From contig NC_088300.1 in assembly GCF_032854445.1 (NCBI RefSeq), positions 35,755,608-35,819,607 of the forward strand: a DNA stretch of 64,000 nt. The letters are read 5' to 3'. Position numbers and translations under genes: made by a program. Positions 13,662-43,700 of the stretch are shown piece after piece. The stretch's first letter is position 1; each line of letters begins with the position of its first letter. The DNA comes from Liolophura sinensis (taxonomy: Eukaryota; Mollusca; Polyplacophora; Chitonida; Chitonidae). The notes under the pieces are model-generated. The model saw only the letters and a program-made list of their open reading frames with translations, did not search any database and was not told where the DNA came from.

Positions 13662-16600
13662 TTAATATTGCTTCTTGATGCGCTGTGGTAAAAGACTTTC
13701 CTGGGCGTATTTGAAGAACGACAAAAGTCCATACTTCTTTCCTCGTCGATTGAAGTAGTGACTAACCACATCTGTACCATCACTTTCTGCAAAAAACACA
13801 ATGAGGAAAACATTTTATCTTTGGTTTTTATGTGGAACAAAACTAAAATTATTTCATTTGGTTGGTGCTGAAAGATAACCAATTAGCTGACACATTAAGG
13901 AACTATTAGAAACAATTTCAACACATAAAACAAAAAAGCTGATCACACAATCATACCTTGTAATGGTCGAGTCTCTGTTGTTGTGGGTAAAACATACTCA
14001 TTGGCTGATAACGATACAAATAATGCGAATGGGACCAACCATAGGCAGATAGTGAAGTACGCAAGAACCTGGAAAATACAATACGAGAGAATAAAATAGA
14101 AATATTTTCAGACATCTTGCAAATGACTGGTCTCAGTTCAGACCCTGGCCTAGTGTTTGTGAGTCATTTCAGCTGTGGCCTCCGGTACCCGCTGAGGTGC
14201 AGTGGTTTCTTCAGGGCTCTGTCCATTTCTACTGACAGCCAGTGTTATATCATGATTTTATAAGGTCCAGAAAATGGTTACTTAACACATTTGCATAGTT
14301 TGCTATCTGGCTGTAATTATGTTGACTGATTTGTCTGACAATTTTATGAAATATGTAGTGCTGGAGAAAGAAAATGGAGAAAATTTTTTTTATTGTAGAC
14401 CTTTGTAATTACTGATTATTGTTAATTTATTCCAAAAGTAGCACAAGTGGATGAAACAAGCTGACTGTACATGTATGTCTACTTGTAACATTAACTCACC
14501 TCTGAAAATGGATGCCATACTGTAGCAAAATATGAGAAGGCCAGATAGTGATTCAGCAATAATAGGCCTGAAAACGAGATTTGAACATATCATATATATA
14601 TAAGAGAGGTAAGACCACACACCAGTTATAATGACACCAGTTATGTTATCATATGGGTAATCTATGATTACCGTTTTACTGCCAGCTAAGTTTCAGATCT
14701 CATTATAAACATAGCTATATTTCTGACACCAGTCCAACTTTGTGTCAGTGGCGGCCCCCATGGCACGGCAGCATTGTGGATATACTGAGTGATATATTTC
14801 CTTTTATTATTACACCTGGGATTAAGACAGACCGATTCATCTATCTTAATCCAAATGAGGCGTAACTACTGAAATTATTGCTTAAGATTTAATGCACTGG
14901 AACAAGCAGAATCGCTCAATCCCCTTTTTAAATGTAATCCTTTTTTTTTTCACTTCTCACTTTCAGTTTCATTTCAAAACAACCTACAGGTACTCTACTT
15001 GTAAATGACAGGGATATGAAACAGCTAGCATAGGCTAAGACAGTCACTCCCTCAGCCAATGGGAATATTTTAATATCAGCCGAACAGTTATTTTTGCTTG
15101 CCTTACATAAGCTCTTACATTGCTTTCAGCCTTACATACGCTCTTACACTGCTTTCAGCCTTACATAAGCTCTTACATTGCTGTCAGCCTTATATGACTG
15201 ATACTTCATGAAGAATTTGGGATATTATTTTCATAAATTTATTCATTCAACACAATTCTTCAAATTGTATTCAAAGTATTCTCTTTCTTACTCAGGCATA
15301 ATTCACAATTCCTTGTATGACAACAGAGTATAACAATCTTACCAAACCTGCTCTAAATACAGAGCCACTAGTCTTCTTACCCACAGCAATAATGAATGGT
15401 AGAGCGGAGACGACAGTATACTTACTCACAGCAATAATGAATGGTGGGGCAGTGACAGCAGTATACTTATCCACAGCGATAATGAATGGTGGGGCAGTGA
15501 CAGCAGTATACTTATCCACAGCAATAATGAATGGTGGGGCAGTGACAGCAGTCTACTTACAAACAGCAATAATGAATGGTGGGGTAGTGACAGCAGTCTA
15601 CTTACCCACAGCAATAATGAATGGTGGGGCAGTGACAGCAGTACACTTATCCACAGCAATAATGAATGGTGGGTCAGTGACAGCAGTATACTGACCCACA
15701 GCAAAAATGAATGGTGGGGCAGTGACAGCAGTCTACTTACTCACAGCAATAATGAATGGTGGGGCAGTGACAGCAGTATACTTACCTACAGCGATAATGA
15801 ATGGTGGGGCAGTGACAGCAGTATACTTATCCACAGCAATAATGAATGGTGGGGTAGTGACAGCAGTCTTCTTACCCACCACCATAATGGATGGTGAAGT
15901 GGTGACAGGAGTATACTTACTCACAGCAATAATGAATGGTGGGGTAGTGACAGCAGTCTTCTTACCCACAGCAATAATGAATGGTGGAGCAATGACAACA
16001 GTAAACTTACGGCAATAATGAATGGTGGAGCAGTGACAACAGTTTACTTACCCACAGCAATAATGAATGGTGGGGTAGTGACACCAGTATACTTATCCAC
16101 AGCAATAATGAATGGTGGGGCAGTGACAGCATTATACTTACCTACAGCAATAATAAATGGTGGGGCAGTGACAGCAGTCTACTTACAAACAGCAATAATG
16201 AATGGTGGGGTAGTGACAGCAGTATACTTATCCACAGCAATAATAAATGGTGGGGTAGTGACAGCAGTCTTCTTACCCACCACCATAATGGATGGTGAAG
16301 TGGTGACGGGAGTATACTTACTCACAGCAATAATGAATGGTGGGGTAGTGACAGCAGTCTTCTTACCCACAGCAATAATGAATGGTGGAGCAATGACAAC
16401 AGTAAACTTACGGCAATAATGAATGGTGGAGCAGTGACAACAGTTTACTTACCCACAGCAATAATGAATGGTGGGGTAGTGACACCAGTATACTTATCCA
16501 CAGCAATAATGAATGGTGGGGTAGTGACAGCATTATACTTACCCACAGCAATAATGGATGGTGTGACAGTGACAGCAGTTTACTTACCCACAGCAATTAT

Positions 16601-40700: not shown

Positions 40701-43700
40701 ACCATTAGTACACATCGCAACAACACTGTGCTGTCCCAGGATCAGGGCTCCTCCATACGGCTCTGGAACTGACAACAAACCAACCATTAGTACACATCGC
40801 AACAACACTGTGCTGTCCCAGGATTAGGGCTCTACCATACGCCTCTGGAACTGACAACAAACCAACCATTAGTACACATCGCAACAACACTCTGCTGTCC
40901 CAGGATCAGGGCTCCTCCATACAGCTCTGGAACTGACAACAAACCAACCATTAGTACACATCGCAACAACACTGTGCTGTCCCAATATCAGGGCTCCTCC
41001 ATACGGCTCTGGAACTGACAACAAACCAACCATTAGTACACATCACCCCAGGCAAACTGCCTTTCAATGACTTCAACACACCACAGACTGTAAACAGTTC
41101 TCCCTTACCTGGAATCACCATAGTCGCCTCCGTCTCCACGGTTTCTTGTTTCCACGGGCCTTTCAGGAACTCCTTATCTCTCAGGGAAATTTCATATGTT
41201 TTAGTATGTCGGCCATGTTGATCCTGTAACATACAGGGAGACTTTACATTTACTGTGTATCATTATACAGTTATAAATATGGTCCAATAAGATCAGACGG
41301 ATTGTATGCAACAAAAAACCCCATAAAATACCACTCCATAATGTACAAAACAATTCACAATAACCTAATATTAACTTACTATCAACCTGGTGAAATCAGA
41401 CGAGAATGTCTCCATACATGTTACGTCATTGCCTAAATAATGGCTGAAATGAAATCAACTGTTGACACCTTGTCAGTTGCATCAGCAGAATCAAGGATGC
41501 CTCCTCTCAGGCTCTGGCCATCACTGAAAATGAGCTCACATTGTTTCTCTTCCACAGGAAATAATTAATGCCAATATTCACTAAGAATGACGGTCTTCAG
41601 ATTACCTCTATTTAGGCGCACCCTCTACTTATACATTTTCCACTTATAATTCGAGCGTCTTCCATAATAAAAGCCCAGTTAAAACTCTTTGTACAAAATG
41701 AGTAAGACGAAGTACCTAAACTGTACCTTAACGAAGTACATATACAAGTTAAAGAAGTTTATTCAATAATTTATATGTTTGAAGTATAACTGACAAAATC
41801 CATTCATACAGTTTGTTAAGCAATTTGTGCACAATCTATTTTTGGCACACTGTTTAAGGTCATATTAGAGGTAATCTAACAGACTGCGAGATTCAAAATA
41901 CAACCTTTTGGTGCGAACAACTCACCTGGTAAATAAGTAAGACAGAGGGGGTGGGGAGACCATAGAAAAATTTGGTGTGGATAACTCACCTGGTAAATAA
42001 GTAAGACCGTGGGGGTGGGGCGACCATAGAGAAATTTAACATCTTGAACCGTCAACTCATCAAGTCTGTAATAAGCAATATAGCTCAGTAAAAGTTAAAA
42101 GCTGTAAAACCTCTTCTTGTTAAAACTTAACTCCAGCAATATATAATGAAGTCCTCCCCTCCAAGCTACAATACATAATTTTTAACCCACTTACATCATT
42201 ACATGCAAATGCCTTTAAACAGAAACACAAAGTCCAGCATTTCACCAAATGTTTGGTATGTCCAAATGCACTTTCAGAAGGATATAAAGGCTTTAAAATG
42301 ATGACTGATACCCATACTTTACTTTTTCTGATAAGAAATTAATTATTCACAGAAAACTGCCCCAAAAGATTGAGTGAGTGAGTGCTTGGGGCTTAACGTC
42401 ATACTCAACAATTTTTCAGTCATATGACGACGAAGGAATCATTAGGGTGCATGTACGTGTAATGTGCCTCCTTGTTGCAGGATGGATTTCCACCGCTCTC
42501 TTATTTAGTGCTGCTTCACTGAGACGACTTACCGAAGGCCAGTAAGCCGCCCCGCCCGAGCCATTATACTGATACGGGTCAACCAGTCGTTGCACTATCC
42601 CCTTCATGCTGAATGCCAAGCGAGGAAGTTACAACTTGGTCGTGCGTTTCCCCGAGCACGGTTTCCACCCACCATAATACTGGTCGTCGTCGTATAAGTG
42701 AAATATTCTTCAGTACGGTGTAAAACACCAATCAAATAAATAAATAAATAACAAATGTAAGAGGCAAAAATGAAAAACTGATACCTGATGTTGAAGGCTT
42801 TCAGCTCCTTGTTGTCTCTGTCAAGGGGAATAACCTTGAAAAGCCCGTCGTAGAGTCTGAGCCCTATAGCCCGACACTGAGGGTCAATGATACCAATAAT
42901 CCCTGTCTCCGACGGCCGGCCTATACGGTCCTAGAACATGATAAAGAAGGGGGATACACTACTTATGATATACCATTTTAAGAGAGAAGACAACAGGAGC
43001 CAAAATGTATATATGCACAGACAGAGTAATGTATACCTTCTACCGTCAGAAAACACTTATTGCAATCCAAAATCGTACACTGAGAAAAAGTGCAGCCTTG
43101 TTATCGGTTTTAACCAACGTGGTGTGAGTTATTCTAATTGCTGTTCCTGCTTACGTCACCCAAATTTGGTGTTACATCTAACCATACTATATGCGTGGAG
43201 TGACATGACATCATATTTCTGGTTGCTCTAACATGGCGTATCCCATAGCCTTGTTAGAATTTCTTATCATTATTTGATTTACTAAGTTACCCAGCACTTC
43301 AAAAAGAAATGTCTATCCCTGTTCATGTTTATTTCCAAGCTCTTCCTTAACACATCTGTAACTCAGGTCATATTATTTCTTGTCTATTCTTTTAAGTGAT
43401 TTAAAACACTGAAATATTGCAAGGAAGTTGTAACCTGTTAAGCTATATACCCCTTTTTAAGGAATATTCACAAAAATTGTTAGCAAAAGTTCAAGAACAT
43501 GAGATGCGGAGGGAGTATAACTACTTGTCAAATCAGTGTTGTTACATACAAAAGAGTACATCTGATCACTTCATATATGTACACTTCATCTTCCTTGAAA
43601 GTTTAATTACTTAACTTTTAGGTGTACCTGAACTCCTGATTTGGTAGAAGAATAACTTGAAAGTATAATTACTTAACTCACATGTACTTGAACTCCTGAT

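Follow-up and report, generated by a model that had tools for sequence, protein, structure and literature searches.

Tandem arrays across exon-intron borders in TEX261, DDB1 and other genes of the chiton Liolophura sinensis, and their likeness to the mirages of amphioxus

Tandem duplications of exon/intron borders have been described in amphioxus under the name of mirages (PMC3087553, PMC3902484), in Adh/Adh3 and in the globins BflGb6 and BflGb9, with PGBD5 and TnC added by the second of these papers. The portions of both papers available to us give repeat units ranging from 10-72 bp (Adh3) to 150-160 bp (globin), and report instability of the arrays together with undisturbed splicing. Two other described systems come close. 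One is intron gain by tandem genomic or internal gene duplication, for which the accessible text of PMC2809761 and PMC4974935 gives cases in Drosophila and potato, citing Gao and Lynch 2009; the other is the intronic minisatellite, such as the 27-bp minisatellite in intron 3 of the abalone TSSK1-like gene and that in intron 1 of earthworm metallothionein (PMC6905558, PMC12783039, both from partial text). Here, we describe tandem arrays that span exon-intron borders in a mollusc, the chiton Liolophura sinensis, starting from a stretch of 64,000 nucleotides of contig NC_088300.1 (positions 35,755,608 to 35,819,607 of the forward strand, called the window below) that carries the genes TEX261 and DDB1. 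The first-pass annotation of this window had pointed out four such arrays and had overlooked that the phenomenon already has a name and a literature of its own.

We located the arrays of the window with Tandem Repeats Finder, which returned all four at the places and with the units first proposed. All features of the two genes lie on the minus strand and are given in window coordinates. In TEX261, a 45-bp unit repeated 27.9 times (15376..16622) spans the donor of exon 3 (16588..16741, ending at 16588), so that the 3' end of the exon is the authentic copy of the unit, with 35 exon bases in the footprint of the array. In DDB1, a 53-bp array of 7.5 copies (28681..29083) spans the donor of the 19th mapped exon (29045..29139, ending at 29045), which holds the authentic copy and contributes 39 exon bases. 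An 82-bp array of 11.9 copies (40072..41044) spans the acceptor of exon 7 (40015..40112, starting at 40112), where the 5' end of the exon is the authentic copy and 41 exon bases are included, and a 64-bp duplication of 2.0 copies (41907..42037) spans the donor of exon 5 (41990..42065, ending at 41990), which holds the authentic copy with 48 exon bases. DDB1 alone therefore carries three border arrays. The borders of the gene models fall inside the arrays, as had been claimed, and each of the four footprints consists of 35-48 exon bases, the splice site and intron bases. The four border arrays of the window are thus confirmed.

Results also showed that the copy continuous with the remainder of the exon sits at one end of the array in all four cases. 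The 82-bp array occupies DDB1 intron 6 almost wholly; its copies are 96% alike according to Tandem Repeats Finder, and the AG is intact in every spare copy that was examined. The TEX261 array contains two copies of a block of about 400 bp, made of nine units, one of which has a 4-base deletion. It is correct that the extra copies are found on the intron side in every case; however, this holds by definition, because only the copy attached to the exon counts as the true one, and it gives no information on the cause of the arrays.

The exon models were obtained by tblastn with human guide proteins and refined to splice-site pairs, giving six TEX261 exons and 26 mapped DDB1 exons. TEX261 was identified by the Pfam family Erv26 (PF04148, E 3.5e-54 on the joined exons) and DDB1 by a PDB chain match (E 1.3e-26 on one exon). 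At least one further DDB1 exon, that for guide residues ~743-800, is missing from the model. A gap of 200 N lies inside DDB1 at 31146-31345, and the two exon ends facing it are without assigned position; the missing exon may be hidden in this gap, in which case the 19th mapped exon would be the 20th. In DDB1 intron 8 (39285, minus strand), the best-scoring model uses a GC donor (GGAGAG/GCAAGT), and an alternative GT four bases off scores nearly as high. The predicted proteins align to their homologues across the array borders without insert, suggesting that the outermost splice site is the one used.

The units share no sequence relationship with one another, in agreement with the first-pass annotation. 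We compared ten units, namely the four of the window, one from DDB1 intron 3 and five from the other loci presented below, and the largest z value among the 45 pairs was 2.7, which rules out a common sequence family behind the arrays. No Rfam element was found in the window at gathering threshold. The unit from intron 3 belongs to a 60-bp array of 8 copies (43594..44078) that begins 22 bp inside the intron. The array bears a weak resemblance to the exon 3 border, a score as high being reached by 4.2% of 2425 control segments, and is possibly a fifth border array that has decayed.

As the window had been chosen for its pattern, we sampled other loci of the genome, a 609,464,459-base assembly in 632 contigs. 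The sample of 210 kb was made of 14 arbitrary 10-kb stretches (one of which holds 2,500 N), five seeded-random stretches, taken from the top of a list of 80, and a 20-kb region surrounding one of the 14, chosen because its parent stretch looked interesting. It contains 35 merged arrays with units of at least 28 bp, covering 22,756 of 210,000 bases.

Three further genes with a border array were identified in this sample. In UBR5 (PDB match with E 6e-120 over joined exons), a 68-bp unit is repeated about 40 times at L024:7088-9874, up to the acceptor of the exon starting at 9853. In GMPS (PDB, E 6.9e-52), a 52-bp unit is repeated about 19 times at L026:9034-9990, to the end of the fetched stretch, and the exon at 8958-9055 ends in the unit. 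In MRPL50, about 49 copies of a 34-bp unit (L023:1167-3038) run up to the acceptor of the exon starting at 1183, with an upstream exon at 4912-5040; this gene was identified by the PDB chain mL50 (E 7.9e-7), and its Pfam Ribosomal_L50 match (E 0.00056) is under the curated cut-off of that family. Two more arrays abut plausible exons in the stretch L007, a putative donor array of 89 bp x 27 (3467-5845) and a putative acceptor array of 118 bp x 6.6 (7717-8494). Neither PDB nor Pfam gave an identity for the L007 gene, and these two arrays were therefore classed as probable and excluded from the gene-based counts. Altogether, the seven confirmed border arrays comprise four donors (TEX261 exon 3, DDB1 exon 5, the 19th mapped DDB1 exon and GMPS) and three acceptors (DDB1 exon 7, UBR5 and MRPL50), are 0.13-2.8 kb long and have units of 34-82 bp. 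Judged from the predicted gene models, border arrays are present in at least five genes of this chiton.

In order to compare these cases with chance, each unit was placed randomly over the gene positions that are not wholly exonic, an array being counted as straddling a border when at least 5 of its bases were exonic, and overlapping Tandem Repeats Finder rows being merged. For TEX261 and DDB1 together, four of 13 arrays with a period of at least 9 straddle a border, 1.02 being expected (P = 0.014), and four of nine do so when only units of 28 bp or more are counted (0.91 expected, P = 0.008); both counts are post hoc, the window having been picked for the pattern. In the homology-defined stretches of UBR5, GMPS and MRPL50, three of four arrays straddle (0.23 expected, P = 0.0005), and the figure for all homology-defined genes with units of at least 28 bp is 7 of 13 (1.14 expected, P = 2.8e-5). 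This gene-based count omits the arrays beyond the mapped exons, which are L024 253-567 for UBR5, L026 970-1172 for GMPS and L023 6148-6534, 6708-7264 and 7294-7956 for MRPL50, and also a 23-bp UBR5 array. A more lenient count outside the window adds seven non-straddling arrays near identified exons (L009 5657, 5911 and 9034; L012 6322; L002 6051; L013 7316; L011 4449), each with an assumed probability of 0.07, and gives three of 11 against 0.72 expected (P = 0.031). As a further control, every border was moved by 60-480 bp into its intron while the same 13 arrays were kept, with the split GMPS and MRPL50 rows merged and the UBR5 array lengthened to take in its final, shortened copy. Seven arrays match at the real borders, whereas the slid borders gave a mean of 0.64 and a maximum of 2 over 22 offsets.

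These figures have to be weighed against an origin by filtering alone, in which duplications arise evenly, the exonic ones are removed, and the four arrays of the window represent the fraction that fell on borders in a genome rich in minisatellites; they would have drawn attention because oddities were being looked for there. Minisatellites are indeed dense in the sample, and unit placement by itself would give nearly one border array in TEX261 and DDB1, as calculated above. Moreover, when all 35 sampled arrays are considered, three confirmed cases against 1.47 expected are within expectation (P = 0.18); with the two probable cases, five straddle (P = 0.014). Both values assume 0.74 borders per kb, an estimate from the published gene number, the coding sequence length and the exon sizes found here, and at 1.5 borders per kb they rise to 0.58 and 0.17, respectively. 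An annotation-free ab initio test shows no excess either: of 43 arrays, 3 reach p < 0.1 and 4.3 were expected to do so; an earlier version with fewer loci gave 5 of 32. This test carries little weight, because known border arrays fail its cut too (p = 0.103 for UBR5 and 0.316 for GMPS, and 0.116 and 0.343 for the two probable L007 cases). Its exon scoring is noisy, about ten GT per 10 kb passing at a threshold that retains 55% of true donors, and it ranks the true cases at p 0.05-0.32 only.

Other points weigh in the same direction as the 35-array count and the ab initio test. The evidence for an excess comes from 13 arrays in five genes; two of these genes belong to the window chosen for its pattern, and the other three were picked out by eye in stretches that were arbitrary or random. 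The choice of genes was not blind, since MRPL50 and UBR5 were noticed in lists of open reading frames (ORFs) that contained ORFs of the arrays, and GMPS was recognised by eye from an exon 3.4 kb from its array. In addition, undisturbed splicing past the spare copies is an assumption. On the other side, filtering alone accounts poorly for the proportions found in UBR5, GMPS and MRPL50 and over all homology-defined genes, and for slid borders that never reach more than two matches. We therefore regard filtering alone as a serious contender, with a probability somewhat below one half. The first-pass annotation had held that border arrays are more numerous than such a filter predicts; this is supported in part, by the strict and lenient counts outside the window and by the slid borders, and is unproven genome-wide. 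On balance, the counts favour arrays straddling borders more than chance would have it, with small numbers and short of proof.

The annotation had also suggested that the copies might be selected as spare splice signals. In this reading, they would be kept as a backup or an enhancer of splicing. Consistent with this idea, strong sites were found in all 11 scored spare copies of the DDB1 exon 7 array and AG in all aligned UBR5 copies. However, these two arrays are 96-97% alike at the other positions too. We measured conservation per unit position among the spare copies of eight arrays, six confirmed and two probable, omitting the two-copy array of DDB1 exon 5. Results showed that conservation of the splice dinucleotide is 0.954 and that of the other positions 0.931; within the arrays, the dinucleotide stands at the 19th-57th percentile of positions. 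The retention of AG/GT ranges from 0.74 to 1.0 per base over these eight arrays, and 26% of TEX261 copies no longer have the G of GT. Sites were also scored with a position matrix of small size, for which TEX261 and DDB1 served as training genes. Scores of spare and authentic sites were equal in DDB1 exons 5 and 7; in GMPS, no spare site scored above the authentic one, and in TEX261, the 53-bp array, UBR5 and MRPL50, spare sites lay on either side of it. Furthermore, read-through past the authentic donor of TEX261 reaches a TAA inside the first unit, and none of the remaining confirmed units (53, 64, 82, 68, 52 and 34 bp) has a length divisible by three. As the splice dinucleotides are not specially kept, the spare copies look like decoys tolerated by the splicing machinery and not like selected spares. 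Selection for spare signals thus found no support, and we consider it very unlikely.

We also considered that the arrays could be artefacts of assembly, with repeats collapsed or inflated. The available part of PMC11068029 gives a HiFi coverage of just 14x, and copy numbers of the long arrays could be off. The same source gives an average length of 8,347 bp for the HiFi reads of the Liolophura japonica assembly, and all the arrays described here, including the confirmed ones, are shorter than such a read. Furthermore, the copies differ among themselves and the arrangement recurs at seven places, so that an artefact is the least credible of the explanations and can be given hardly any weight.

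With good confidence, we interpret the arrays as mirages, that is, minisatellites whose founding tandem duplication took in an exon-intron border. According to this interpretation, a border segment would first be duplicated in tandem by slippage or template switching. The coding sequence would remain unharmed if the outermost site was still used, exon definition picking the shortest exon, and the added copies would turn into intron. Slippage or unequal exchange could later lengthen the array, and the doubled block of about 400 bp in TEX261 is a sign of block-wise growth.

What places the founding duplication at a border is a separate matter. A mutational process tied to borders, through pausing, nucleosome edges, R-loops or splice motifs acting as microhomology, could start duplications at exon ends. 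This is suggested by the apparent 6-fold excess in the homology-defined genes and by the fact that donors and acceptors are both affected. Base composition was tried as a driver and found no support. Once the six border arrays known or suspected at that stage were set aside, the 37 arrays left matched their flanks in GC content (0.390 for the unit, 0.392 for the flank), so that GC does not account for array formation in general. The sample is small, however, and the distance from the unit end to the splice site varies, the exon part being 35, 39, 48 and 41 bases in the arrays of the window. As both border types are struck and no crowding at gene starts is seen by eye, the data speak against a simple promoter-proximal R-loop model. 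We would give a border-tied process in general a chance just short of even. In this chiton, starts of such arrays at borders are probably more frequent than elsewhere in introns, by mutational bias and not by selection of spare sites, although this is not proven. More tentatively, and with odds that we see as lying on the unfavourable side, such a process might repeatedly found arrays in chitons at a rate several-fold above that of the rest of the intron, as a genome-wide feature of a protostome.

The sample also gives a view of the genome around these arrays. Tandem arrays whose units measure 28 bp or more make up about 11% of it. In the published repeat table, as far as its source was available (PMC11068029), the entry for simple repeats, microsatellites and RNA stands at 0.08% and the unclassified share at 14%; the minisatellite load may be concealed in this share. 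Independently of the arrays, the window carries an open ORF of 347 amino acids for a Tc1/mariner-like transposase (50341-51381, minus strand) with the Pfam domains HTH_Tnp_Tc3_2 and DDE_3, and closely resembling ORFs occur near the start of contig C1 (L001). The stretch L014, on a contig of 425 kb (C20), is unlike the rest of the sample, with a GC content of 0.46 and many long ORFs on both strands, and is perhaps a mobile element or a foreign contig.

In the papers found, as far as their text was available, mirages are discussed for amphioxus alone, and as a possible route to new introns. That a mollusc carries them in at least five of its genes suggests that they extend beyond cephalochordates, and mirages may accompany minisatellite-rich genomes. 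Each array is a natural test of splice-site choice, with up to ~40-49 near-identical sites beside the one that is presumably used. If the border-tied process is true, it would keep supplying duplicated splice sites, and new exons or introns could originate from these. The chromosome-scale assembly and the published gene models make both the excess at borders and the seeding of splice variants testable by computation.

Comparison with the other described systems helps to place the chiton arrays. No mirage outside amphioxus was found among the literature matches listed, including those of searches aimed at molluscs and invertebrates, and this negative is weak evidence of priority because the listings are partial and subscription journals lie mostly outside their coverage. 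Like introns gained by tandem duplication, as these are presented in the parts of the papers available, the chiton arrays copy a splice signal; unlike them, they show no evident new exon or intron, and the copies appear to stay inside the existing intron. With the abalone and earthworm minisatellites, they share tandem units in lophotrochozoan introns, but those arrays lie within introns and are not said, in the text available, to contain a border.

The closest likeness is to the amphioxus mirages. As in amphioxus, the tandem unit holds the exon-intron border in all seven confirmed arrays, either the 5' or the 3' border of the exon can be copied, and many copies keep the AG or GT. Two observations may bear on homogenisation within the arrays, another mirage feature: the doubled block in TEX261 and the 96% match among the DDB1 exon 7 copies. 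Unit lengths are of the same order, with 34-82 bp for the confirmed chiton arrays and 89 and 118 bp for the probable ones, compared with 10-72 and 150-160 bp in the amphioxus data that were accessible. The chiton case differs by its host, a protostome and not a cephalochordate, by arrays of up to ~40-49 copies and three arrays in a single gene (DDB1), and by adding a first rough test of frequency against chance. In conclusion, the arrays of TEX261, DDB1, UBR5, GMPS and MRPL50 are a new occurrence, in a mollusc, of the known mirage kind.

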